A stretch of DNA of 64,000 nucleotides. Origin: Acorus gramineus. Lineage: Eukaryota > Streptophyta > Magnoliopsida > Acorales > Acoraceae. Under the pieces are notes generated by a model. The model did not search any database. It saw only the letters and a program-made list of their open reading frames with translations, and was not told the DNA's origin. Where the stretch lies: the NCBI GenBank assembly GCA_030737835.1, contig CM060848.1, positions 6,041,267 to 6,105,266 on the forward strand, written 5' to 3'. How positions within the stretch are numbered: position 1 is the first letter of the stretch; each line of letters begins with the position of its first letter. The translations under genes and the position numbers were made by a program. This document shows positions 5,399 through 48,942 of the stretch, piece after piece.

Positions 5399-5647
5399 CT
5401 ATTTTGGCGGCGCCACATGCGACGAGGCATTGAGAAACTCTTTGCGCTCTGCGATGGCTCTCAACTTCTGATCCACAAGAGAAGCCACTTCACCCAAGTC
5501 CGCCCCCTTCAAACCCTCCCCGCGGAGGTACCGACTCAACGCCACCTTCGCCTCCATCACGTGGATCTCCTTCTCAAGCCTCCTAAGCTGCTCTTTTTGC
5601 CTTTCGACCTGGAACCTGATCTCCTCGTTCACCTTGTTATGCGCCAT
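5399..5647 (-). CDS. MADS-less AGL80-like microprotein, copy A
   Basis: An 82-residue protein. It starts MAHNK, matching the first five residues of the AGL80-like protein at 13007-13522 (MARNK), then runs directly into that protein's region after the MADS box (VNEEIRFQVERQKEQLRRLE, then VALSRYLRGEGL). About 80 residues that would hold the MADS DNA-binding domain are absent. What remains is a charged coiled-coil-like segment (about residues 10-35) and the conserved C-terminal block. An ATG 63 bases upstream (5710) is in frame, but I chose 5647 because the homologues start there and the upstream stretch matches their 5' leader. A TATATATATA run lies at 5712-5724. M-gamma genes normally lack introns, so this looks like a genomic deletion. 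It may be a dominant-negative-like dimer partner or a decaying gene. Confidence 0.6.
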   Translation of the reverse strand: MAHNKVNEEIRFQVERQKEQLRRLEKEIHVMEAKVALSRYLRGEGLKGADLGEVASLVDQKLRAIAERKEFLNASSHVAPPK

Positions 5648-5710
5648 GAAAGAAAATCCAATGAAAAACAAATGACTTGTTGAGGCACTTCGTTGTTTGC
5701 TTGTGTTCAT

Positions 5711-5726
5711 AATATATATATATAGG
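5711..5726 (-). promoter_or_regulatory. Candidate TATA box of MADS-less copy A
   Basis: An alternating TA run about 65-78 bases upstream of the chosen ATG. The equivalent position of copy B (9582-9590) carries a shorter ATATAT. Position and composition only. Confidence 0.35.
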
Positions 5727-8379
5727 GTCTTGTGACTTGTGAAGGATCAATTCAATTTAATGTGCATTAATTGCAATAAATATTCAATAGTATAGTTCTC
5801 AATTAATTTTATTGCGTGTGTTCAAAATATACAGGGGCTTAATGACTTCGTTGAATGCCTAAATTGTAAAATTTAACAAATTCTCTCCATTAATTTAGGG
5901 TCAGTTAATTTAGGATCTTTCATAGATGATCGTGAGAGATTTTTTTTTGGTTTTTATTATGCTACGGATGAAAAGATTACATGCTTGTAATATTTAATTA
6001 AACTGTGCTTTTGGGCGATTAGGATCTTTGAATTATCTAATCAAGATTTTTAGAGATCCCTTACAATATTTGACAGTAAGTTCATTACAACGGAAATTTA
6101 GAAAATTTATAATGGAATTTTGGTTTTCTTGGCATATATACCAAAAACAGGTTTTCTATTTTTATATCATGACAAATAGCAAAATTCATTTTATACCATT
6201 AGAATATTTCTTAATGAAAAAATATGTCTCTTTATCATATTTTTTAACTAAAATCAAATTATCTAGAGTTAGTTTCTAACCAATAAGTAAAAATGACAAA
6301 AATATTTTTAACATAATATTTTTATGATGTTATCATAATTAAACATAATAATCACATTAATCTCTTCCTCTTTTTATATCAATCATGAACCGTTCTCCCT
6401 CTCACCTTCTTTTCATGCCTCCTTTTAAAAAAAAATTAGGGTTTTTCTGTCAATCAACTATGATAGATTTCATCATTCTTCAATAACGATCATAAATAAG
6501 GTAGCTCAATATGCAATAGATCAACTCTGTATTTCAAAGTGTTTTCCTCTTATATTCCATGTTCTAACGGATCATCCATTGCTTGCTTGAATTTCTAGTT
6601 CCTGTCCTGCAAAAAATATATTCTTGTAAGATGTCCAAGTCCAACTTCATTTGTTGATGAATTAGTGTTTAGATTTTTTAAATAAACCTTGATTTTTTTA
6701 AGCAAGGGAATAAATAAAAGAAAAAAACAACTCTGGTCTTTTTTATTGTTTTGAACTTATTAAAAGAAAATTAATGCTAGAATGTCAAGATGAATTATAT
6801 GTGGTTTTTAGTTGACTATTGTTAGAAATCGGGACAACGGAAGAAGATAGAACCAGTACAATTGCTTCAAGAATCAACGGAGTTGAATGCTTTTAGACAG
6901 ACTTTTCTGTTCTGATAAGAACCGCGAGTACACAAGGGAATGAGGAAATACAGCCTTCAGGATACAATAAAGCCTTCACTGGTGTTGAAAACAGAGTGTG
7001 TACTCTCTGTTTCAATCTCTTAGAACTTTCTTTGTTTTAAGAACTGATGATGCTAACTTGTAATAGAAAAGATAAGAGAATGAGTTGATATTGTACTATC
7101 AATTTTGAATCTAGGACCCTTTTATGGACAAAATAGTGCTTCTTGGTGCAAAAGACACACCCTTTCATGAATGGGGAGTAACTGTAACTGTCCGATTGGT
7201 GGACCACCATTTTCACATGATCGTGTGGTCCAGATCATCTACCACACAATGCACCCCTTCCAATGGCACCCTTTGATCATTCATCGATGGACATTGCATT
7301 TGTTTAGGTGTAAAAAATCAATTATATGCTACTTTTTTGAATAAGTAATGTCGAACGCGTTTGGATGCCTCAGAAAAAGGTGGTTAACTGAGAATAATTT
7401 ATGTAACCCTGGGATAAGACAGAAAGCAATGTATGCCATTTCCATGTAATGATAAATCCTAAATCTTCACAAAGTTCTCAATTTTCTTTCTTCGTTGTTT
7501 TCCAATATAAAAAAATCACATCATTTTTATATGTTATTTATTTTTCACATATATTTTGATTTTAAATATTTTGTTTGTGAATCTAAATTTTTTATGTTAA
7601 TGATGTTATGTTGCAGTAAATTAATAAAATCTAAAATACTTGAAATTGTGATGGTTCAGGTAATAGAAATATACAAATATCACGGTATGGCAAAAAAAAT
7701 ATTGCTTGATTAATGTAGAATGGCGATAAACGGGTCATTTTTATTAAATATTTAGCATATTTTCTTGCGACCAGTTCGGTTGTCAAGTGACATGATTATG
7801 TTGAATAAAAAAAAGAGCCTAGTGTACCGTTAAGCTAATATATGTCAGATATGAAAAATACAACATAAATGTGTTTCATTTGTCTATATGTGCACTAGAT
7901 AAGTATTCATATTACGAAAAGATCATGCGCATCAAAAACTAATGAGGGCAATTACACATAATTTTTGTTTCAACCCAAATTCCAGACCACTATGCCTCCA
8001 GAGGATATACTCACATTATGAGGTATATATATATGCTTCGATAAAAAAAAATTACATTTTCTATAAATGCATACATAGAATTCATTGGAATATATGTTTC
8101 ATTTTTTTATAAAAATATGTAACTCATTAGATGAAGTTTACTATTTTTAAAAAATTCAAAACATGTGTACAATGAAATTAAGACAAAAAAGGACTTTACC
8201 TAACATTATTCAAAACCAAAAGTGATGGTTGGTAACAAAATTTTTTGTGTTATTGATTATCACCTGATATTGTAAGAGATGTCATAAAAAAAACTCTTGT
8301 AGAGAGATTAAATCCCTTCCTAATCACCACAAACCAACGGTCTGATTAATCAAGGCAACTCACCATGCATACGATTTGG
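5727..8379. other. Intergenic, no gene seen
   Basis: 5730-6400 is the upstream half of segmental copy A, including 5941-5968, the empty counterpart of the foldback insertion in copy B. About 6826-7330 starts TGTTAGAAATCGGGAC and has LTR-like composition (possibly a solo LTR), but I found no target duplication. 7490-8370 is AT-rich and contains nothing I recognise. Confidence 0.5.
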
Positions 8380-9182
8380 CTTCGGTCTTCAATGAATGTC
8401 CGGATTCTGTTTGGGGATAGATTGACTGTTTAATGGGGTTTGAGTAGTATTTTGATGTAGACAGTGATAAATTTTTTAAGTTGTTAGGATGTTTATATTG
8501 AGTTCTCTTTTGTGATATAATCAGTTTTTGCATTTGATTATACTGGTTTGCGCATACACAAAGAGAGATACAGAGATATATGCGTATTTGTGTATGCTTT
8601 CGTGTATTGGGCTACATGCTTGGTTTGGGTGTTTGTGTTAACTAGATCCCTCTATGGTTATATTTAGAGTAAAAAAATAAAATAAAATAAAATAAAATCT
8701 AGAAGCTCTGTGCTACATGCATGGTTCGAGACATATATGTAGGAGACCATTGTAAACTATAGTGATATATTGAGAGGCTTGAGGGATTTTGTGAAACTTT
8801 GTAATATCTCCCATATATATATGTTATGTTAATGTGCAAAATTGATTTTTTGTTATTAAAATATATATATTACTGTGGGCAAAAATCGTATGTAGTTTGG
8901 ATTCTATTTCTTAAAGTGGGAGACAACTTAAATGGTTTTTGTTTGGATTATGTTCCTTAAAGTGGGGAGATAACCTAAATGGTTTTTGATTAACCATAGA
9001 TCAGTGCAAAGATTAACTGAAAGCAGATTTTTTAAAACAAGTACACATTTGATAAAACTTCTTGTCTTTTATTGATTGATTTGTACACAACCCTTCACAA
9101 ATTTATATAGGGTATTGTGACTTGGAGTTGTAAGAAAAACAAACATAAAGGAAATACATCGAAACACTCTTATAATAGCTAG

Positions 9183-9218
<36 letters not shown>

Positions 9219-9269
9219 TTAAGTATATATGAGTACTTAATCTTCGAAGAGTTATTTATGACTGTATGC

Positions 9270-9518
9270 CTATTTTGGTGGCACCACGTGCGACGATGCA
9301 TTGAGAAATTTTTCGTGCTCTGCGATGGCTATCAACTTCATGTCCACAAGAGAAGCCACTTCACCCAAGTCCATGCCCTTCAAACCCTCCCCGCGGAGGT
9401 ACCGACTCAACGCCACCTTCGCCTCCATCTCGCGGATCTGCTTCTCAAGCCTCCTAAGCTGCTCTTTCCCCCTTTCGATTTGGAACCTGATCTCCTCGTT
9501 CACCTTGTTGCGCGCCAT
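9270..9518 (-). CDS. MADS-less AGL80-like microprotein, copy B
   Basis: An 82-residue paralogue of 5399-5647, starting MARNKVNEEIRFQIERGKEQ. It has the same junction between the first five residues and the post-MADS region as copy A, so the deletion predates the segmental duplication. About 13 of 82 residues differ from copy A, with no stop or frameshift in either, while the flanks have many indels. The coiled-coil-like segment and the block VALSRYLRGEGLKGMDLGEV are kept. The upstream in-frame ATG at 9581 would add 21 residues that match only the sister copy's leader. The function is unknown. If expressed, it could pair with type I MADS partners without binding DNA. Confidence 0.6.
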   Translation of the reverse strand: MARNKVNEEIRFQIERGKEQLRRLEKQIREMEAKVALSRYLRGEGLKGMDLGEVASLVDMKLIAIAEHEKFLNASSHVVPPK

Positions 9519-9844
9519 GAAAGAAAATCCAATGAAAAACAAATGACTTGTTGAGGCTCTCCGTTGAATGCTTGTGTTCATAATATATGGGGGCTTGTGA
9601 GTTGTGAAGGATCAATTCAATTCAATTCAATTCAATGTGCATTAATTGCAAAATATATTTAATTGTATATATTCTGAATTGATTTTATTCCGTGTGTTCA
9701 AAATACATAGGGGCTTAATGACTTCCTTGAATGCCTTAATTGCTAAATTTAACAATTTCACTCTCAAATATTTTTGGGTCAATTAATTAAGGATCTTTCA
9801 TTGATGATTGTGAGAGATTTTTGTTGTTTTTTTTTTTTTTTTTT

Positions 9845-10750
9845 GAAAAAATCCATATAACACCTAGTAATTTGGCCTAAATCTATATAATCCCTGTAAT
9901 TTTCATAAATCCATATAACCCCCTATAATCTCTTTATATCCATAAAAGCCCCCTCCGTCTGCCTTCCGTCCGTCTGGTTAATGAGGCAGGGGGTTATATG
10001 GATTTATGACATATTACAGGGGGTTATATGGATCTTTCTCCCTTTTTTTTTTCTTTACATATGGTTTAAAAATTGAGTTGTTTAACATTTACTTCTGAAT
10101 TTATTTTTTAAGATACCATGCAATTTTGATTTTAATAAAAGAAAAAGAGTTATTCATATCATAAACACATACAAGATCACCCACCAAATAGATATATACT
10201 TTATCTCTTGGTATTTCAAAAAAAGAACCCAAAACTACTCCTCCACGTACAGTTTATCCCTAACAAAATTCGCTCATGACACCAACACAAGATGTGTCCC
10301 AAGATTTAATAAAAAATATAATTCGTATTTTTGAAATTTTGTTGGTTGATGTTACACACTTTTTGTTACAAAATTCATTCTTTTTTACTTTTATCTCTTT
10401 GGTGGGTGATCTTGTATGTGTTTATGATTTGAATAACCCTTTTTTTTATTAAAATTAAATGTCAATGGTATCATGAAAAAAATTCAAAAGCAAATGTTAA
10501 ACAGCTTGATTTTTAAACTACATGTAAAGAAAATAATAAAAAAAAATGAGAAAAATCCATATAACCCTTTGTAAATCTGTCATAAATCCATATAACCCCC
10601 TGCCCCGTTAACTAAACGGATGGAAGGCAGACGGAGGGGGTTTTATGGATATAGAGGGGTGATTACAGGGGGTTATATGGATTTATGAAAATTGCAAGGG
10701 GTTATATGGATTTAGGCCAGATTACATGGGGGTTATATGGATTTTTTCCC
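9845..10750. mobile_element. Foldback (giant inverted-repeat) element in copy B
   Basis: Two arms of about 370 bp (9845-10215 and 10383-10750) are near-complete reverse complements, with a loop of about 170 bp. The ends read GAAAAAATCCATATAAC and its inverse. The outer arm parts repeat a GGGGGTTATATGGAT motif several times. Flanks are T-rich on both sides, consistent with a poly-T target duplication. Copy A has the empty site at 5941-5968. There is no coding capacity. A Mutator-like origin is plausible but not proven. Confidence 0.75.
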
Positions 10751-12695: not shown

Positions 12696-13006
12696 AACTC
12701 CAGATTGTTGGTATCACACGATCATTATGATGCCACTTAATTTTTCTAATACATCACACCATTCCCACCAAACAAAACACAAAAACAAACATATACACAC
12801 ATTGTTATAATACTATTTTCTTCTTTTATTGATCGATCTGTACACAATCCCATCACAAGTTAATGTAGGGTGTTCTGAATCGAAGAGCAAGAAAAACAAA
12901 AAAAACATTAAAATTCAGATCATGCATGTCAATAGTTCCACTAAAATTCCATCAAAGCACTCCTAAAATAGCTCACAGTAATCTTTTTATTTCAACATTT
13001 ATTTTC

Positions 13007-13522
13007 TTATAACCGAAGTTGAAGGTCCACGGCCGGCAGCGGCGCCAGACACAATGACTTCGTGAGCCACTCAATGCGTTCCGCAACGGCTCTCACCTTC
13101 CCCTCTGCAAGCGAACCCACTTCATCCAAGTCCGCGGTCTGAACACCCTCCCCACCAAGGCACCGCATCAGCGCCACCTTCACCTCCGCCTCGCGGTTCT
13201 CCTTTTCTACCTTCTTGAGCTGCTCTTTCAACCTTTCATTGCCCTTCGACAGGAACCTCGCTTGATCGAGGGTCTGCTTGTCCTGACCCAAAGAGGGGAG
13301 GTCTCTGAGTTGGGCGATCAGCTTGCCCGCGTCGACTATGGAAGGCCAGATTTCTGGTTGGTTGGGCTCGCCAGGCGCGGTGACAAGCGCGCAACTTTGG
13401 ACGCCGCAGAGCACGCTCAGCTCGTCCACCTTCTTGATGAGGTTTCTCTTGCGCCTCTCAAAGGTGCGGCGACGAGTCACATCGGAAGTTATGTAAGCAA
13501 TCTTCGTCTTGTTGCGCGCCAT
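13007..13522 (-). CDS. Type I (M-gamma, AGL80-like) MADS-box protein
   Basis: A 171-residue intronless protein. Residues 1-60 form a MADS domain: MARNKTKIAYITSDVTRRRT, then FERRKRNLIKKVDELSVLCG, then CALVTAP. Next comes the EIWPS motif typical of the AGL80 group (PEIWPS at about 56-61), then a charged coiled-coil-like region (about 95-125), then a conserved VALMRCLGGEGV block. The start ATG fits the family start. In other plants AGL80-like proteins pair with other type I MADS factors and act in the female gametophyte and endosperm; that role is inferred here, not shown. The C-terminal third is the part kept in the two MADS-less copies upstream at 5.4 and 9.3 kb. GC content is higher than in the surroundings. 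Confidence 0.85.
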   Translation of the reverse strand: MARNKTKIAYITSDVTRRRTFERRKRNLIKKVDELSVLCGVQSCALVTAPGEPNQPEIWPSIVDAGKLIAQLRDLPSLGQDKQTLDQARFLSKGNERLKEQLKKVEKENREAEVKVALMRCLGGEGVQTADLDEVGSLAEGKVRAVAERIEWLTKSLCLAPLPAVDLQLRL

Positions 13523-14480
13523 GAAAGAAAACCAATTGAAAATCAGAGTACTTAATGTTGAGGCTCTTCTATTTGATGGTTGTGTCGCGTGGACTTCATT
13601 GAAGGTGTGTTAATTGCAGGCTGGTGTTTTGGGTTGTTAGGATCTTTGACTTATTTGACCAAGATTTTTTGGAATCCCTTACAATATTTGTCCTGGTAAT
13701 AAATTAATAGATGGTTGGTTTACAATAGTTGGTAATAATTAATATATTGATTTAAGTCATTGATCAGTCGTGGATGATCAATTGGAGTATTAAATTGAAA
13801 CACCTTCCCTTTAATATAGAAGGTGATTATATGGATACAAGTCACTAATTAATTGTGGAATGTAAAATTAGATTGTAAAATTGAAACTTATTTAATAGAT
13901 AAGGTGACACGTGGATGTGAGTCAATTTCAATTCTGAGAGGTTAAATTTGAACGTAAAATTTGGAACTCGTTACCAATTATGGGATGGTAAATTAGAAAA
14001 AAAAATTGAAATGAATTCATAGTGTGTGTATATATGTATGTGCGTGTGTGTGTGTGTATTTATGTATATAACTTATTTATTAAAATGAAACTGACCCAGC
14101 TTTCATTTCCTCTTTCTTTTCTCCTATAAATTTAGCAATTACATGTACCTATTTATTCAAAATTTAAGATTTCAATTCAGATTAAGATAAATAATAAATA
14201 TATTTTGAGATTTAAAAGTAATCATATCAGTATTTTCAAATTTTAATAAATCAAAATTAAAGATATTCGCTAAATCTTCAATTGAACTCCATAAAGATTT
14301 GTTTCACTATTTTTTTTAATTTAAAAAACATATATATATATAACATGGTGCGGTGTGTGAGGAAGCACATACCTCATTGAAATAAACATACATTCAATGA
14401 GGTATATGCTTTCTTTACCAATGTATATACTCTTTAAAGGGCGTATATACGCGGTTCGCATAGACTGCACGGACCGCATA

Positions 14481-15660: not shown

Positions 15661-16587
15661 TCAAGGGCTGTGTGGGATGATTGGGATCTCCGGAAGGTGG
15701 GGTACCTCGACCTTGGGGAACGTTGGCAATGGTGGAAGTTCAACCTTCGGAAAGGTTGGGATCTCTGGCTTAGGTAACTCGTGGATCTCTGGGTTAGGCA
15801 ATATTGGGACCTCCGGCTTAGTTAACTCGTGGACCTCTGGCTTGGGAAATATTGGGACCTCCGGCTTAGGCAACTCGTGGACCTCTGGCTTGGGAAATAT
15901 TGGGACCTCTGGCTTAGGCAACTCGTGGATTTCTGGCTTAGGCAATTCGGGGATCTCATGCTTAGGCAATGTTGGGTGCTCTGGCTTCGGCAACTCGTGG
16001 ACTTCTGGCTTAGGCAATATTGGGATTTCCGGCTTAGGCGACTCATGGATCTCTGGCTTAGGCAACTCGGGGACCTTAGGCTCAGGCAATGTTGGGTGCT
16101 CTGGCTTAGGCAACTCAGGGATCTCCGGTTTAGGGAAAGTTGGGACCTCCGGCTTAGGCAACTCATGGACTTCTGGCTTAGGCAACTCGTGGACCTCCGT
16201 TTTAGGGAATGTTGGGTGCTCTGGCTTAGGCAACTCGTGGACCTCTGGCTTAGGCAACTCGGGGACCTCTGGCTTAGGCAACTCATGGACTTCTGGCTTA
16301 GGCAACTCGTGGACCTCTGGTTTAGGGAATGTTGGGACCTCTGGCTTAGGCAACTCGTGAACCTCCGGTTTAGGGAATACTGGGATCTCCGGCTTAGGCA
16401 ACTCGGGGATCTCTGGCTTATGCAGCTCTGGAATCTCCGGTTTAGGGAATTCTGGTATGTAGGATGGGGATTCGTGCTCAGGAGCATCGAAAAGATGCCG
16501 AGCTGCGTGGCTCATGATGCCATTGTTAAGGAAGAGGAGAACCAAGAGGACGCCGGCGCATGAGAAGAAGAAAGTTTTGGAAGCCAT
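15661..16587 (-). CDS. PELPK-type secreted proline-rich repeat protein, copy A
   Basis: A 308-residue protein. Residues 1 to about 30 (MASKTFFFSCAGVLLVLLFL, then NNGIMSHAARHL) form a signal peptide. A short linker (DAPEHESPSY) follows. The rest is about 30 units of an 8-residue repeat, with PELPKPEV and HELPKPEV alternating (24-nt DNA period). The start is the ATG at 16587; a longer reading would need a TTG. Proteins of this type are secreted to the cell wall, where prolines may be hydroxylated; Arabidopsis PELPK1 is the reference. The regular histidine in the HELPKPEV unit is a local variant. The DNA repeat leaves the opposite strand open in several frames, which is a shadow. Two paralogues lie at 34.3 and 43.5 kb in the same orientation. 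Confidence 0.85.
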   Translation of the reverse strand: MASKTFFFSCAGVLLVLLFLNNGIMSHAARHLFDAPEHESPSYIPEFPKPEIPELHKPEIPELPKPEIPVFPKPEVHELPKPEVPTFPKPEVHELPKPEVHELPKPEVPELPKPEVHELPKPEHPTFPKTEVHELPKPEVHELPKPEVPTFPKPEIPELPKPEHPTLPEPKVPELPKPEIHESPKPEIPILPKPEVHELPKPEHPTLPKHEIPELPKPEIHELPKPEVPIFPKPEVHELPKPEVPIFPKPEVHELTKPEVPILPNPEIHELPKPEIPTFPKVELPPLPTFPKVEVPHLPEIPIIPHSP

Positions 16588-16630
16588 TGCCAAGCAATTG
16601 AATTGGATGGTTTCTTTGGGTGAAAGCTAT

Positions 16631-24968: not shown

Positions 24969-25973
24969 ATGGATGCCAAAGCTGGAAGGGCAGTATGGAC
25001 TCCCGAAATGAAAAAAAAGTTCATTGATTTATGTCTAGAACAAATCAAATTAGGTGGTCGGCCTGCCGCCAACCTGAAAACATCAGCATGGGCTAAAGTG
25101 AGAGTGGAATTTAACAAGCATTTTGGGGTTTCATATGATCAAAGAAAGTGCAAGAATTTTTGGGACATGCTGAAGAAACAATGGAATGCCTGGCATAAGT
25201 TGATTTCCCTTACTGGCATAGGAGAGGTTGCCCCAGGACAAACAGTCCAGATGGATCCAGAAAGATGGGATGAGCATATTAAGGTAATTTACTTAATTTT
25301 CTATTCGTGCTAATGCCCTTGGTCATACCTAACCGGTTAACATTAATTTGAAATACAGGCAAACCCCGATGCCAAACAGTTTAGGTACAAACCCCTTTCT
25401 CATGCTGAAGAGATGGAACAACTGTTTGGGGGGGTAACGGCCACGGGAAAGCACGCTTTCACTCCAATGGTTGAGGATTCTTTTCTTGATGATTTGGATA
25501 ACTATGGCAACTCATCACACTCGTCCATTCCCACTTCCGCCGAATTCTCTACCCAAAGGGGTCCTCCAGATGCCATAGAGCCTGACCCAGTAAACGTTGA
25601 TATAGAGGACAATGTCGATGATAGTCCATTGTCTAATGTTAGCCGAAAACGCCGATGCCATCCCAAACCGCAGAGGAAAAATTCTGTTGATGACTTTATA
25701 GAGAAGATTGATGGAGTGCTGGATAAGATTGCCAATTCCGCTACCAGTGAGGCAAGCGCTCCCATGATGCCACCACCCATGAGGCCATCTCCCACAATTG
25801 CTGAGTGTTTTGAGTCTCTCCAACAAACCCCGGAGATCGACCCTGATAGTGAGCTATTTTCGCAGGCTATGCTATTCTTCCTAGAGCCCGACCAGCGCGA
25901 GTTGTGGATGCTTAGCAAGAGGGCAACAGCAAGAATTCAGCTCTTGCATACTCATGCCAAACGTTTCAAGTAG
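24969..25973 (+). CDS. Harbinger Myb/SANT-like DNA-binding protein
   Basis: Two exons, 24969-25283 and 25359-25973, joined in phase 0 across a 75-bp intron (AAG/GTAATT ... ATACAG/GCA), giving 308 residues. Residues about 8-105 form a Myb/SANT-like domain (PF12776): VWTPEMKKKFIDLCLEQIKL, then KNFWDMLKKQWNAWHKLI. The splice gives DEHIK-ANPDAKQFRY, the usual continuation in this family. The C-terminal part is acidic, then basic (SRKRRCHPKPQRK, a likely nuclear signal). In Harbinger elements this protein binds element ends and helps bring the transposase to the nucleus and DNA. The frame is intact and was apparently spared by the damage to its partner gene. Confidence 0.85.
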
Positions 25974-26844: not shown

Positions 26845-29800
26845 TGTTATATATGTGTCACTTTTTGGCCTATTGGCAATCTTTGGAGCATTTTTAGCAG
26901 TTTTAAAATTTTTAGGGTTTTTCAATCGGAACCGCATAATTTCAGACTGTTAGCTATCGTCTGAGCTAGAGGACTCCGATTGAAAATCTAACTGCATATT
27001 ATGTGTCCTGGTGCCATTTTAAGCCACTCATGAAAATTTCATCGAATTCTGGCATCGTTTGCAAAAATTTCGCAGTTCCAGGGCGTATCCGGGTTTTTAA
27101 GTCGCGCTCTACTTAAAAGAAATCGAAAATATCTCAACACTATTCATCATCTTCCCGACCTGCTCTCTCTCTCTCCTCTCCTCCGATTTTCTTCCGTTCG
27201 AGCCCCTTACACCCCTCAAAACCAAAAACCTAAAGCACGGGAAGTGTAGATCGGGTCCCGATCTACGCTCCGGTGTCTTCAAATTCGAATTCCGACGATC
27301 CTAGCCTCCCCGACCTCCCCTCTCTCTCCTCTGTTTCGAGCCAAATCAAGGGCCGTGATAGATCGGGGCGTGAGAAGGCTTGTGGGAAGGGTTTCGGCGC
27401 GTGGAGATCCACCGGACGCCTCCTCCTCCCCTCGGTAAGCCTCCTTTCCCTCTTATTTCTCGTCTAGATGATTGCTAGGGGAGGGTTTTGTGTTTGGGAG
27501 GTGGTTGGTGGCGGTGGGGGTCGTCGGAGGGTGGTCGGAGGTGGTTGGAGGTGGTCGGGGCAGTGGGAGGGGTGGTTGGAGGCGCTCGACAGGCTGGGGG
27601 ACTGTCCCGGGCAGCAGGGAGCAGCGGCAGCGGCCAGGCAGCGCGCAGGCCGGGCGCGCGCGGGCATGTGCTCGTGCGTGCGCGGGTGTGCTTGCGCGCG
27701 GCGTGTGCGTGGGTGTGCGCGGGTCTGGTGCGTGGGGCTGGTCGTGCTGGGCGCGCTGGATGGGCTGGGGGCCTCAGGCAGCACAGGCAACGAGCACAGG
27801 AGCCGGCTGGGCGTGCGCGCGTGCGTACGCGCGAGCGTGCGCGCGGGCGTGCGCTCGGGGGAGCTGGTCGCGGCGGTGCGAGGCGTGCGAGCTGCTCGGG
27901 TGGTGCTGTGCGCGAGGGGCTGATGGCGAGCTGGTCTGGGCGCTGGTCTGGCGCGCGCGAGGTGCTGGCCGAGGTGCTGGCGGAGGTGCTGGACGCGCGA
28001 GGTGCTGGCGGAGGTGCTGGACGCGCGAGGGGCTGGCCGAGGTGCTGGCCGAGGGCTGGGCGGAGCGCACGGGTGCTGGGGCGCGCGCGGAGGAGGCGCG
28101 GGGCGAGGAGCTGAGCGCGAGGTGGTGTGCGCGGGCGCGAGGTGGTGTGCGCGGGGGCGAGGCGCCGCGCGGGGGGCGCGCGGGGTACTCGCGGGCCAGC
28201 GCACGGCGTGCGGAGCGCGTGCGGGCTGCCGCGGCTGGGCGCGGTGGACGCGCGGTGCCCCGGGCGGTGCGCGGGCGATGGCGCGGCGGCGCGTCCGGGC
28301 GGTCGGGTGGCCGTGCGGGTGGTGGCCGGCCGTGCGGGTGGTTGCCGGGGGGTGTTGGGTGTTTGTTTGTGTGTGTTATGTATTTTTGGGATAATTGTGG
28401 ATTTATTCTAACCAGTTAATACCTTGTCTTGCAGATCTCGACGGACGGTCGCGTGTCGACCCGATTCCCGGTGAGTGGGACAACCCAACCCAGTGTGGGA
28501 GGCGCTACATGCTTTGGGCGTGTACCGTCCTCCCCTGGGGCTTATAGTTAGTGTTAACTGCTTTGATGTAATCCATGTATGCATGATGTGTGTGTAGAAT
28601 TGCATGCCACCCTAGATTGTGTGATAGGGACTTGCACCCTTAGGATTGTGCATGAGCCATGCATCCTGCCACCTCGCTATCGTGCTAGGAAAGCCCGACC
28701 TGTGCATGCGTCCTATTAGTTTGGTTTATTTAATTAAATGCGAACTGTAATAATAGATAGCATGCTTAGGGAATATAAGGGGGGCCTTGCGAGGTTAACA
28801 TTGAGACCCGGGTTAGGGTACTCCGTGTTCCTCGTTTGGTTGTCGGATGTCCTACATCGGGACCTCAGGTTACCCTCCCAAGGTCTCTATTTTCCCTTGT
28901 ATTATGATTAATAAATGCATGATCCCCGCATCCTGGTTATGCGCGCTGGTGGAATTCTGAGGAATTCGAGACATTAGAGTCTTAGAGATGTGCTGTCAGC
29001 GGATCCGATTGGATCATATGCGATGGATAGGCTGTTCTGTTCCCCTCGTCGGATCCGTGTAGAGACTACCTCGGCGTTAGACAGGTTGTCCCGTGCAGGG
29101 GCTCCCACTAGTAGGCGCCTCCTGACTTGGAAGGACTGCGCTGAACATGGGAGTGGCCAAACAACCGCGGAGTGAGGAGAGACTATCGGTGGACCAAGGG
29201 TAACCAACAGCCTAGTCAGTCCGAAGAGCCTAGGTCACCTGTTGAGAGGTGAGGGTGAGGGTATGGTGGGCCGGCGATGTGATGACCCACAGGATTATGA
29301 ATGGATGTTTATCAACCCGCTAAGTCCCAACATCCTAGGTCACCTGTTGAGGGTGAGGGTGAGGGTGAGGGTATGGGGTTCGGCGATGAACGAACCCCCG
29401 GATGGTGATATTATGCCACTTGTGGCTTATGAATTGATTAAATGTGGTTAATATGACTGTATGCATGGGTTGTGCTATTCACTGAGCGTGTGGCTCACCC
29501 CTCGCATATTGCCTTTTCAGTGATCTCTGAGGGAGGAGCTTCCCGAGCGACTACACCGGCAGAGGGCAGCGCCGCGTCCCACGAGTTTTGAGGCCATCAG
29601 CACCCTTCTTTCTGTTGTATGTATATGTTCTGTGCTTGGGCACTTAGTTGGATTATATTTGGATTTTGTTGTGTATATTTATGACATGTTGGCTCTCACG
29701 GGACTTTTGATTATGTATCGAGTCTGTAGTGTGTTTTGACTACAGACTCAGTCTTTTAGCTTCCGCACTCGGTGTATATATTATGTCAGCCCTGTTTTTA

Positions 29801-29906: not shown

Positions 29907-30557
29907 TGGTGCACGCAATCATCGAAACTGACAATCAAGTTCCATATCGGGGTCGGAAGGGGGATTGCATGCAGAATGTACTTGCGGTATGCAATTTCGA
30001 CATGTTATTTACTTACGTAATGGCCGGATGGGAAGGAACTGCTCATGACTCGCGCATCCTTTCGGATACAATCCGCGACCCTTCCAATAGGTTTCCAATG
30101 CCCCCCTAATGGGAAATATTATCTTGTAGATGCTGGATATACGAATAGAAGGGGATTTCTAGCACCTTACCGTAATGTAAGGTATTGGTTGGGTGACTAC
30201 CGGAGGGGTTTAGGACCCCAAAGCAAGGAGGAGCTGTTTAATTATTTCCACTCATCTTTGCGGAACGTGATTGAGAGAACATTTGGTGTGTGGAAGGCGC
30301 GCTTCCCAATCCTTAAGAAGATGGCCCCTTATCCATTCGGTATTCAGGTCCGAATCGTGGCGGCAACAATGGCGATCCATAATTATATTAGAATGTCTAA
30401 TCTAACAGATGCCTTGTTCGAGAGATACCAAAACACGGCTGTTGAAGATGAAAATGCCACTGAGCAGCAATACCCCATAGTCCAACCCGACAACGAACAG
30501 GCTGAGATGAATGCAACACGAGAGGAGATTGCTAATCTCCTTTACAGTAGACGATGA

Positions 30558-34271: not shown

Positions 34272-35153
34272 TTAATTGACAATGTTGCACAAAGGTGAGA
34301 CTGGGACCTCCGGGATGTGAGGCACCTCGAACTTTGGCAATGGTGGAAGTTCAACCGTTGGTAAGGTTGGGATCTCTGGTAACTTTGGCTCAGACAATTT
34401 TGGGACCTCTGGGACCTCAAGCTTAGGCAACTCAGCGACCTCAAGCTTAGGCACCTTGGGGATCTCAGTCTTGGGTAATGTTGGGACCTCTGGCTTAGGC
34501 AATTCGGGGATCTCATGCTTGGGTAATGTTGTGATCTCCGGCTTAGGCAACTCGTGGATCTCTGGCTTAGGCACTTCGGGGATCTCAGGCTTAGGCAATG
34601 TTGGGTGCTCGGGCTTAGGCAACTCGTGGACCTCTAGCTTATGCAATTCGAGGACCTCAGACTTAGGCAATGTTGGTTGCTCAGGCTTAGGCAACTCATG
34701 GACCTCTGGCTTAGGCAACTCGTGGACCTCTGGCTTAGGCAATGTTGGGTTCTCCGGCTTAGGCAACTCGGAGACATCAGGCTTAGGCAACTCGTGGACA
34801 CAGGTTTAGGCAATGTTGGGACCTCAGGCTTTGGCAATGTTGGGTGCTCTGGGTTAGGCAACTCGTGGACTTCTGGCACAGGCATACTCGGGGACCTCCG
34901 GTTTAAGATAGCGGTTGGGACCTCTATCTTAGGCAACTCGGGGACCCTTGGCTTGGGTAATGTTGGGACCTCTGGCTTAGGCAACTCCGGGACCTCTGGC
35001 TTAGGCAATGTTGGTATGTAGGGTGAGGATTCATGCTCAGGAACTTCAAAAAGATGCCGAGTTGGATGGATCATGAAGCCATTGTTCAAGAAGAGGAGAA
35101 CCAAGAGGGCGTCGTTGCATGAGAGAAAGAAAGTTGAAAGTTTTTGAAGCCAT
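34272..35153 (-). pseudogene. PELPK-type proline-rich protein gene, broken copy B
   Basis: Paralogue of 15661-16587. It has the start context (MASKTF) at 35153, the signal-peptide core (VLLFLNNGFM), the linker EHESSPYIPTLPKPE and many PELPKPEV/HELPKPEH units, ending IVN. The reading moves between frames: a frameshift lies just after the start within the signal peptide (about 35110-35140), a local out-of-frame stretch lies around 34880-34920, and a further shift lies near 34790-34805 in the repeat array. No single frame spans the gene. The promoter with its TATA box is retained. The last 60 residues (LPPLPKFEVPHIPEVP) are well kept. Confidence 0.8.
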
Positions 35154-43469: not shown

Positions 43470-44168
43470 TCATGGGCTGTGTGGGATGACTGGTTTCTCC
43501 GGAATGTGAGGTATCTCCACCTTCGGGATGGTTGGGATCTCCGGCAATTTTGGGACCTCTGGCAACTCCGGGATCTCAAGCTTAGGCAATGTTGGGAGCT
43601 CGGGCTTGGGCAATGTTGGGATCTCCAGCTTAGGCAACTTTGGGATCTCAGGCTTTGGCAACGTTGGGACCTCAGGCTTTGGGGCCTCCGGGACATCCAG
43701 CTCAGGCTTTGGGACCTCCGGCTTCGGGGCCTCTGGCTTTGGCAACTCGGGAACTTCTGGTTTTGGCAATGTTGGGACCTCCGGGACATCCAGCTTTGGC
43801 TTTGGGACCTCCGGCTTCGGGGCCTCTGGCTTTGGCAACTCGGGAACTTCTAGCTTTGGCAATGTTGGGACCTCCGGCTTAGGCAACGTTGGGACCTCAG
43901 GCTTTGGGACCTCTGGGACATCCAGCTTAGGCAATGTCGGGACCTCAGGCTTTGGGACCTCCGGCTTCGGGTCCTCTGGCTTTGGCAACTCGGGGACCTC
44001 CGGTTTGGGCAAAGTTGGGACTTCTGGCTTGGGCAATGATGGTACGGAAGGTGGGGATTCATGCTCGGGAGCTTCCGAAAGATGTCGAGCTGCATCGCTC
44101 ATGAAACCATTGTTGATGGAGAGGAGAACGAAGAGGGCGTATGAGAGGAAGAAAGTTTTGGAAGCCAT
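43470..44168 (-). CDS. PELPK-type secreted proline-rich repeat protein, copy C
   Basis: A 232-residue protein from the ATG at 44168. Signal peptide MASKTFFLSYALFVLLSINN, then GFMSDAARHL and the linker EAPEHESPPSV. About 20 repeat units follow, mostly VPTLPKPE and VPELPKPE with inserted KPEAPKPEVPKPE runs. The HEL variant common in copy A is missing. The C-terminus (IPTIPKVEIPHIPEKPVIPH) matches copy A's end. It is presumed to be secreted to the cell wall like other PELPK proteins. The promoter and 3' flank are shared with copy A. The repeat changes suggest array turnover between paralogues. Confidence 0.85.
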   Translation of the reverse strand: MASKTFFLSYALFVLLSINNGFMSDAARHLSEAPEHESPPSVPSLPKPEVPTLPKPEVPELPKPEDPKPEVPKPEVPTLPKLDVPEVPKPEVPTLPKPEVPTLPKLEVPELPKPEAPKPEVPKPKLDVPEVPTLPKPEVPELPKPEAPKPEVPKPELDVPEAPKPEVPTLPKPEIPKLPKLEIPTLPKPELPTLPKLEIPELPEVPKLPEIPTIPKVEIPHIPEKPVIPHSP

Positions 44169-46944: not shown

Positions 46945-48942
46945 TCAATTTAAATTTACAACATCATCAAATTGGTCTCCAAGAGCCTCCTCAACCAAGA
47001 TAGTCTGAGTTCTTTGTTGTGCTTTGTACCAATCTCGTAGGCACACGCACTGCTCGACTACATCTGGATGTAAACGACTTCTATAATCATTCAATACTCG
47101 ATTTCCAGTGCTAAATGCTGATTCTGAAGCAACTTGTGAAGCAGGAACAGTTAATAAGTCTCGAGCCATAGCAGAAAGAACAGGAAATCGATTTTCTTGC
47201 CCCTTCCACCATGCCAAAACATCAAAAGTCCCTTCGCCATCTTCTTCGACATTTGGCTCTTGAAGGTAGCATTGTAGTTCAGATGTACCACTGCCACCTA
47301 GTGACCGGTTCAGAGTGCTTAGTCGCACCTTGAATTGTTTCCACCCTGACACTGATTTTTCCCTCGGTTGTTGTGATGAGGATGTATCGGCTTCACCACT
47401 TTGTCTTTGAGTATTCTCCCTTTGAAACCTGTATTCTTCAAACATAGCTTGTAAAACAGAATTAATTTGAGCAATATTTTCATAATCCGTGCCACTATCA
47501 GGACCATTAAAACATTGATAAATATATTCAACTAAAATTTGCAGACCACTTATTTTAAAACGAGGGTCCATAATAGTGGCTAATCCAAAAATGATGGGAA
47601 TTTTTTCCCAATATTTTCGAAATTTTGCCTCCATTGCTTCACAAATTGGTTCAAAAGCAACTTCATCTCTATGTTGGTTAAAAACATCACAAATATGGAA
47701 CAAATGGAGTAGTACCTGGTTGGAAGTAGCATAATAAATTCCAGAAAAACAAACAGTAGCATTATAAAAAACTTTGAATAAATCTCTAATCATTTCTAAG
47801 CATGCCCAATCTTCAAGACTAATTTCCTCATCATAATTTTTCTGTAACAAATATGTACTAATAACATTTTTATAAGGAAGAGCTGCTTCAATCATCAAAT
47901 AAGTAGAATTCCACCGATGTCTAACATCCGTCGGTATTTTTCTACTTCTAAGACCTGCAGTTTTACATGCTTGACGAAATTCTTGATATCTACTTGTAGA
48001 AGAAAAAATATAAATGAAACATTGTTTTATACGCTCAATAAATGGCTTAACGGCTTCTAAACCATCCTGCACAATAAGATTGAGTATATGACAACAACAA
48101 CGAACATGTAATAATTTGGATGTTTCTAGAAATCTAGCTAAAACATCATTAGAAGAAGCATTATCTAAAGTAATTGTAAAAATTTTCTCATAAATACCCC
48201 AATTTTGAAGTTGGTTGATGATACTAGTTGCCATCGCTTGTCCTGTATGGGGGGCATCAAGATCAGAAAAACAAATAATTCTTTTCTGCAATATCCAATT
48301 TGCATCAATGAAATGAGCTGTTAGTGAAATATAACATAAAGGTTGGTTAGAAGTCCATAAATCAGAAGTTAAACAAACTCTTCCAGGAATATTACTAAGG
48401 GTTACAAGTAAATCTGTCTTCTCTTCAGCATATAATTTTTCGACATCTCTCTTAACTGTGTTGCGAGAAATTGGTTGAAATTGAGGACCAAAAGCTTTTT
48501 GGATCCACTCTTCAAAATCAGGATCCTCAACCCTTGAAAATGGTTGTTCAGTCTTGATTATATATTTCACAGTTTCTCTTCTAGCAACAACTTGATTAAA
48601 ACTAAAATTTGACAATTGCCCAGTCGAAGTTCTACTTAATTGTGATTGAAATTTCGATCCAACAATTTTACGGGTACATTCAGCAGCATGTCTAATTAAG
48701 TGGCTAGTGCCACTAGAAGAATTAGCAGTTAATTCCTTACCACAGAAACGACATTTAGCAACTGTTTTGAAATATCCCGCAGGTTTTGTAGGATCTTGAA
48801 CACTTATCTTGTCAAAAGTGTCCCAAGCTGCTGAAGGTTTTCGTTTTGGTTTGGAGGTGCCAACTTCATCTACAGCAGGGGAACCAACTGATGGATTTTC
48901 AGCATCAGCTCTAAAAACATTATCTGCAGAACTATCAGCCAT
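46945..48942 (-). CDS. hAT transposase with BED zinc finger (Ac/RICESLEEPER type)
   Basis: A 665-residue uninterrupted protein. A basic KPKRK signal (31-35) is followed by a BED zinc finger (W40; C64, C67, H81, H85). The RNase H-like catalytic core has Asp194 in TSDLWTS and Asp260 in TITLDNASSND, followed by the RCCCHILNLIVQ motif. The C-terminal hAT dimerisation region (PF05699; FDVLAWWKGQENRFPVLSAM, then LLTVPASQVASESAFSTG) includes Glu607, the likely third catalytic residue. The family cuts out and reinserts the element, acting in the nucleus on the terminal repeats. No stop or frameshift is present, and the size is normal for plant hAT transposases. With inverted ends and target duplications in place, the element could be functional. 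Domesticated relatives (DAYSLEEPER/RICESLEEPER) exist, but the attached ends argue for a mobile copy. Confidence 0.92.
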   Translation of the reverse strand: MADSSADNVFRADAENPSVGSPAVDEVGTSKPKRKPSAAWDTFDKISVQDPTKPAGYFKTVAKCRFCGKELTANSSSGTSHLIRHAAECTRKIVGSKFQSQLSRTSTGQLSNFSFNQVVARRETVKYIIKTEQPFSRVEDPDFEEWIQKAFGPQFQPISRNTVKRDVEKLYAEEKTDLLVTLSNIPGRVCLTSDLWTSNQPLCYISLTAHFIDANWILQKRIICFSDLDAPHTGQAMATSIINQLQNWGIYEKIFTITLDNASSNDVLARFLETSKLLHVRCCCHILNLIVQDGLEAVKPFIERIKQCFIYIFSSTSRYQEFRQACKTAGLRSRKIPTDVRHRWNSTYLMIEAALPYKNVISTYLLQKNYDEEISLEDWACLEMIRDLFKVFYNATVCFSGIYYATSNQVLLHLFHICDVFNQHRDEVAFEPICEAMEAKFRKYWEKIPIIFGLATIMDPRFKISGLQILVEYIYQCFNGPDSGTDYENIAQINSVLQAMFEEYRFQRENTQRQSGEADTSSSQQPREKSVSGWKQFKVRLSTLNRSLGGSGTSELQCYLQEPNVEEDGEGTFDVLAWWKGQENRFPVLSAMARDLLTVPASQVASESAFSTGNRVLNDYRSRLHPDVVEQCVCLRDWYKAQQRTQTILVEEALGDQFDDVVNLN

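Follow-up and report, generated by a model that had tools for sequence, protein, structure and literature searches.

A single-origin family of short type I MADS-box relatives without the MADS domain in Acorus gramineus: candidate coiled-coil microproteins

A 64,000-nucleotide stretch of the Acorus gramineus genome (hereafter the window: contig CM060848.1, positions 6,041,267 to 6,105,266, or 6.04-6.11 Mb of the contig that we call C2) carries two short genes of 82 codons that are related to a nearby full-length type I MADS-box gene but have no MADS domain. When the genome (398.6 Mb) was searched with the short protein, this MADS-less architecture appeared at 18 places (L009-L026). Our favoured reading is that they form a family of single origin, with a reading frame under weak purifying selection and a two-helix coiled-coil microprotein as its product. 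To this reading as a whole we give a probability of about 0.5. That the short family is selected and protein-coding at all is, judged from sequence, probable, and we think it likely that its members are genuine microproteins under weak constraint, which one tissue or another probably produces.

Both short frames are present and, as the original prediction had claimed, each fuses the five-residue start of a full-length protein to its post-MADS part. Residues 1-5 are those with which the full-length protein of the window begins (MARNK, or MAHNK in copy 1), while from residue 15 onward the two proteins match its post-MADS part by tblastn (expectation value, E, 2e-16 and 2e-13; 56% and 50% identity); homology by chance is excluded. 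The full-length paralogue lies where it had been reported, with 3.5 kb between its 3' end and the ATG of copy 2. The base at which the two parts join cannot be fixed: VNEEIRF fits poorly to both sides, and an ungapped comparison of its 27 bases with two full-length coding sequences gave nothing convincing and traced them to neither side. The AGL80-like, or M-gamma, label of these genes is our assumption, in part taken over from the original prediction.

The likeness extends beyond the coding parts, as blocks on both sides are common to the full-length gene and copy 2 (13508-13585 with 9504-9577; 12797-12900 with 9043-9143). Being alike on both flanks, the short genes are therefore a DNA-level copy with an internal deletion, and not a retrocopy or a captured fragment. 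Capture by a transposon does have a parallel in this genome, where a fragment of another AGL80-like group sits on a dispersed element with inverted ends. However, these common flanks, the confinement of the short genes to one chromosomal region and the absence of the element's end sequence from the window at up to 3 mismatches make it very improbable for the short genes. We give equally little credence to a spliced transcript that would link an upstream MADS exon to the short frame, so that the exon was never lost, an idea for which we found no support. The short frames open with a MARNK-type start of their own, behind a leader that is homologous to the leader of full-length genes. Among the matches listed, no piece encoding a detached MADS domain is found on the strand of a short gene in the interval up to the next gene upstream (those preceding L025 and L026 are encoded on the opposite strand). 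For type I genes one or two exons are also the general rule (PMC8346517).

Where the original prediction had seen two short copies, both of them real, there is thus a family of 18 with the same junction throughout (18/18). Seventeen copies lie on C2 between 5.995 and 6.836 Mb; the remaining one, on the unplaced contig C121, is a single residue apart from L025 and perhaps its allele. The short genes are interleaved with full-length ones, all on the minus strand at 5.99-6.46 Mb and all on the plus strand at 6.72-6.84 Mb, and in four cases (L001-L009, L039-L012, L002-L010 and L007-L016) a full-length gene is followed downstream by a short one at a distance of 3.1 to 3.8 kb, measured between match starts. 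A tree built on the post-MADS codons unites the short genes in one clade with 100% ultrafast bootstrap. Since all 18 copies have one junction and fall in this one clade, a single deletion that preceded the duplications is supported by the sequences, in agreement with the order of events first proposed. The same tree groups the short genes at 99% with two full-length clades, A (that of the window) and B, as expected of common descent with full-length members. It does not settle the branching order among the three (A with B at only 47%). Because the short clade joins A and B in a three-way split, the full-length gene of the window is a cousin and not the direct parent of the short genes, and by its placement the short lineage is older than the spread of clade A.

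What the deletion removed bears directly on what the short proteins could do. Neither of the two in the window matches PF00319 at E up to 1, against 6.9e-11 in the full-length relative, nor did Pfam give them any family, with sub-threshold matches only. The model of the full-length protein, a rough one (mean predicted local distance difference test, pLDDT, 64.5), has a helix at 14-39, two strands, a helix at 65-73, a long helix at 78-126 and a helix at 129-158. By alignment its second helix (65-73), which is I-like, falls within the deleted stretch and is absent from the short proteins. The short protein is modelled with more confidence (mean pLDDT 83.6) as two helices, 2-42 and 51-75, with a coiled-coil-like helix predicted. 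A Foldseek search of this model against solved structures found no match; with the full-length model it returned the MADS domains of MEF2, SRF, MCM1 and SEP3, none at E 0.001 or better. A 2026 paper describes the helix-strand-strand-helix unit as that of DNA binding and dimerisation (PMC13293092), and the deletion, spanning the MADS domain and the I-like helix, has taken all of it from the short proteins. In pull-downs the M domains of AGL61 and AGL80 alone did not interact, whereas the M plus I-like regions did (AGL80 residues 1-88; PMC8346517). Having lost the MADS plus I-like module, the short genes are not expected to play the known role at the MADS dimer interface. Of the first idea, microproteins that pair with type I MADS factors without binding DNA, the second half is in keeping with the loss of the DNA-binding domain, and the first is weakened by the loss of the pairing module; contact with a partner would have to use the remaining predicted coiled coil. 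A stronger hydrophobic core gained by the short lineage was also considered and dropped, since the Ile for Asn at one core position occurs in two full-length relatives as well and another core Leu is lost.

Evidence that the frame is maintained comes from codon models. Thirteen of the 18 copies are intact (L009-L019, L025 and L026, with two extra codons in L016), and no stop is found in the aligned codons of any copy, with 12 codons at the end of L020 and L024, and 11 at the start of L021 and L022, masked as out of frame. The ratio of nonsynonymous to synonymous rates (dN/dS, omega) that had been proposed as a check on the original prediction was estimated over these 18 paralogous copies of one genome; a one-ratio model gave 0.51 (twice the log-likelihood difference, 2dlnL, from omega 1, 14.7), a model with a CpG term 0.44 (2dlnL 21.3), and 12 intact copies alone 0.52 (2dlnL 9.9). 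Five control frames of the same DNA, read in those 12 copies, gave 0.99, 1.85, 1.08, 0.57 and 1.31, with stops in all five; the value of 1.08 belongs to the antisense reading found open in the window. Indels, too, are fewer in the coding part (0.60 per 100 bp) than in the flanks (1.13 and 2.82). In the window pair itself MAFFT placed none in the coding part, and a more gap-prone aligner, which put 2 gaps there, counted 4 over 300 bp upstream and 8 over roughly 200 bp downstream, bearing out the claim that the frames stayed open while the flanks gained indels. The flank mismatch of this pair (22.5% and 30.3%) was not used, because 5' of copy 2 the comparison enters a hairpin-like insertion beyond about -330, which is unfair to the flanks.

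The codon model is, however, biased under neutrality (mean omega 0.77 and 0.79 in two simulation sets), so the chi-square values overstate the signal, which was therefore calibrated by simulation. In 120 neutral runs omega was as low as 0.51 in 2 and stops were absent in 1. A first larger series, with the neutral rate taken from synonymous divergence (dS) and four mutation settings (1600 runs), gave no stops in 1 run, a dN/dS as low (13 copies) in 33 and both in none. A second series of 3000 runs used a lower neutral rate, matched to the total distance of the coding part or of a flank (0.105 or 0.084) with three settings each (the observed coding distance being 0.112 by this simulation's own count); it gave no stops in 83 runs, a third-position share as high in 309 and both in 11. 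In the most lenient setting 33 of 500 runs were free of stops. Open frames under neutrality would thus be unusual, yet possible.

The main rival to selection on the frame is that a dead, deleted gene was carried along by segmental duplication, its frames open through youth and partly kept alike by gene conversion. We find this doubtful, though several observations weigh on its side and against the favoured reading. Five of the 18 copies are damaged (L020, L021, L022 and L024 by frameshifts, L023 by loss of its start, where ATA replaces the ATG), and L021 and L022 have a common frameshift near the start as L020 and L024 have near the end; besides these there is a partial copy. Conservation of the coding part is no better than that of its surroundings, with a mean pairwise distance of 0.105 as against 0.084 in the 300 bp upstream (120 pairs) and 0.096 in the 200 bp downstream (66 pairs; L022 and L026 left out of both comparisons, and L010, L018, L019 and L020 of the downstream one). 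An earlier cut of the flanks had given 0.094, 0.121 and 0.078 upstream, 0.156 downstream and 0.114 for the coding part. The coding part has a guanine plus cytosine (GC) content of 0.54, compared with 0.30 and 0.27 in the flanks, and given this GC-richness it may have a higher neutral rate. Gene conversion, which might hold frames alike, did occur. To judge by its sequence copy 1 is a gene-conversion mosaic, identical to L011 over a tract with 8 and 13 differences from it in the two adjoining stretches, while the same tract shows 4 to 7 differences from L012-L014, the group that the rest of copy 1 follows.

The selection signal has weak points of its own, the bias described above and the 2 neutral runs of 120 among them. 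One antisense control reached an omega of 0.57 (2dlnL 7.4). In the shared region omega is 0.55 on short branches as against 0.25 on full-length ones (2dlnL 7.8, uncalibrated). Much of the signal lies in the last ten codons (73-82; omega 0.16, 2dlnL 11.4), the coiled-coil and helix part (codons 13-72) giving 0.65 (2dlnL 4.5); the value for codons 1-12 was degenerate (tree length 13) and was discarded. At one core position, where most relatives have Leu, the short copies carry Gln, Gly, Arg or Pro. Internal and terminal branches are alike (0.56 and 0.48), as are lineages with and without damage (0.45 and 0.52; both comparisons made without L022 and L026), and since these classes do not differ the test has little power to separate living from dead copies.

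What speaks against decay is that the two signs of a maintained frame occur together so rarely under neutrality in both simulation series, that the antisense frame of the same DNA has gathered 7 stops in 4 columns of the 12 intact copies, and that stops lie inside 26 of the 119 rows matched by the full-length protein (rows that include distant groups, split genes and transposon copies) and in no short copy. Neutral decay as a pseudogene therefore does not, at modest strength, appear to describe the family as a whole, and single copies differ. The claim that the short frames are kept open thus gains support from both omega and the simulations, suggesting that the remaining small coiled-coil gene may still yield a small working protein. 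A role as RNA, in which small RNAs or decoys would act on the full-length genes by way of common sequence and so tune them, is improbable. Small RNAs commonly stem from tandem and inverted gene copies, and the bases of the coding part are no more conserved than those of the leader; yet such a role would leave the lack of nonsense changes and the third-position excess without explanation, and an identity of only about 74% between short and full-length genes in their shared part is poor for pairing.

The start of the short genes and a possible promoter were looked for in the DNA just upstream. An in-frame ATG (MNTS, 103 codons in all) was considered as the true start of both window copies, but we think that this stretch is a 5' leader, because a TATA-like element immediately precedes it and L017, L021 and L022 have a break in its frame. 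A scan found a TATA-like stretch 67 to 77 bases 5' of the ATG in 14 of the 18 short copies; in the four not listed (L009, L010, L011 and L023) the eye finds ATATATTATG or GTATATTATG at this position. The same block, with GAACACA after it, occurs at 85 or 86 bases 5' of the ATG in the full-length genes L003, L004, L005 and L007, and the scan, from which L008 and L039 were left out, found none in L001 (that of the window) or L002. As far as sequence goes, the common block fits a shared expression of short and full-length genes. L001 and its near twin L002, having no such block (window 13523-13672), may be poorly transcribed.

Table 1. Positions in the window of the short genes, their full-length relative and associated features.
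Feature	Position	Strand	Details
Short gene copy 1 (L015), 82 codons + stop, no MADS domain	5399..5647	-	ATG at 5647, stop at 5399
Short gene copy 2 (L009), 82 codons + stop, no MADS domain	9270..9518	-	ATG at 9518, stop at 9270
Full-length relative (L001), 171 aa, MADS domain PF00319 (E 6.9e-11), without the TATA-like element of four sisters	13007..13522	-	
Tract of copy 1 identical to L011	5528..5569	-	coding bases 79-120; 0/42 differences
In-frame upstream stretch with ATG (MNTS...), probably 5' leader, copy 1	5648..5710	-	
In-frame upstream stretch (MNTS...), probably 5' leader, copy 2	9519..9581	-	
TATA-like element of copy 1	5709..5724	-	-77 to -62 from ATG
TATA-like element of copy 2, CATATATTAT	9580..9589	-	found by eye; L009 not listed by the scan
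Hairpin-like insertion upstream of copy 2	9845..10748	.	inverted repeats 9845-10194 and 10392-10748, 85% alike

The history that explains these findings best runs as follows. A full-length, AGL80-like type I gene lost its MADS domain and the following I-like helix by one in-frame deletion, leaving an 82-codon gene that retained the start region, the 3' flank and the TATA-like element and became a separate lineage. Tandem and segmental duplication, to which the arrangement of the genes points, would then have produced the 17 chromosomal copies, and weak purifying selection, for which the support is statistical, would have held the reading frame, so that at least some copies would make protein. 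The product is most likely a two-helix coiled-coil microprotein that would not be expected to contact DNA or to pair through the known MADS dimer interface. It may join the matching coiled coil of its full-length relatives, itself or a shared cofactor, and thereby lower or tune the activity of those relatives where both are expressed; this action is suggested tentatively. Less probable still is the further step in which a lineage-specific MADS-less coiled-coil family, having the TATA-like promoter block in common with some of the neighbouring type I genes, regulates these through contact outside the MADS and I-like regions.

Other truncated relatives were encountered in the genome. A partial short copy (L034) begins 353 bp before L023, the copy in which the MA start codon is lost, the two together lying at C2 6760115-6760713. 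The dispersed element mentioned above is a second, independent MADS-less set; it is about 2.29 kb long with inverted ends GGGAAA...TTAATTA...GAGTCCC (17/18 bases alike), and the captured post-MADS piece that it carries, from another AGL80-like group, shows about 83% identity to L064. It was found at L053 (C6), L055 (C7), L054 (C2), L051 (C2, two inverted copies) and L052 (C3), the copies on C2, C6 and C7 being 97.7-99.5% like the C6 one and that on C3 91%. In six relatives of clade B, five at 3.17-3.23 Mb and one at 5.75 Mb of C2, the match is interrupted by one TGA. In the three examined (L042, L043 and L044) the TGA follows MRCL and cuts the protein to 123 residues, leaving the MADS domain and coiled coil without the C-terminal block, the opposite truncation.

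Elsewhere in the window are three proline-rich repeat loci with PKPEVHELPKPE-like units, presumably of the PELPK type (15661-16593, 34272-35104 with two overlapping frames, and 43470-44168 on the minus strand), where Pfam found no match in the three frames tested. An open 665-codon frame for a hAT transposase with a BED finger (PF05699, PF14372, PF02892) lies at 46945-48942 on the minus strand. A Myb/SANT-like frame and a DDE_Tnp_4 transposase fragment (24969-25313 and 30045-30557, plus strand), a pair that we take to be as in a PIF/Harbinger-type element, enclose long overlapping Arg/Ala/Gly-rich frames at 27464-28419.

The concept of the microprotein is already known (PMC6003976), and no description of MADS-less type I microproteins was found among the literature matches listed, subscription papers being mostly outside their scope. 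Genes of this kind are easily lost from view, as surveys of the family in pear (PMC5598432) and cabbage (PMC6425688) discard matches without a MADS domain at the first filter, and in grapevine 42 of 169 homologous regions were set aside for want of one (PMC4729134). This filter is a blind spot, behind which many such genes could lie uncounted. Should the proteins be made, the post-MADS coiled coil of type I factors would have a use of its own, missed by studies of MADS plus I-like pairing; and if regulation through contact outside these regions were true, type I MADS complexes would have a second assembly surface, and seed or embryo-sac control a rapidly copied feedback layer.

At 82 residues, homologous to a larger multi-domain protein and without its DNA-binding domain, the short proteins agree in these respects with what is called a microProtein. 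A microProtein also keeps a protein-protein interaction domain, for which the predicted coiled coil, often polar at one core position, is a candidate. They are like the LITTLE ZIPPER-type microProteins of plants (PMC6003976) in being small, in having a larger transcription factor relative and in keeping a coiled-coil-type helix with the DNA-binding domain gone; but LITTLE ZIPPER retains its target-binding zipper, whereas the short genes have lost the proven pairing module and are left with a predicted coiled coil. With the type I factors of the AGL80 / M-gamma group (PMC13293092, PMC8346517) they have in common, by descent, the start region, the post-MADS coiled coil and the second helix that follows it; unlike these factors they have neither MADS domain nor I-like helix, and DNA binding and AGL61-AGL80 pairing are not expected of them. 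Shortened MADS members are also known in ZmTMM1 (PMC7382388) and in the grapevine VviSVPS genes (PMC4729134), the latter likewise adjoining full-length relatives. They are the mirror image of the Acorus genes, being type II members with the MADS domain still present and the K and C parts gone; in the VviSVPS genes all but the start of K is missing, together with part of I (PMC4729134).

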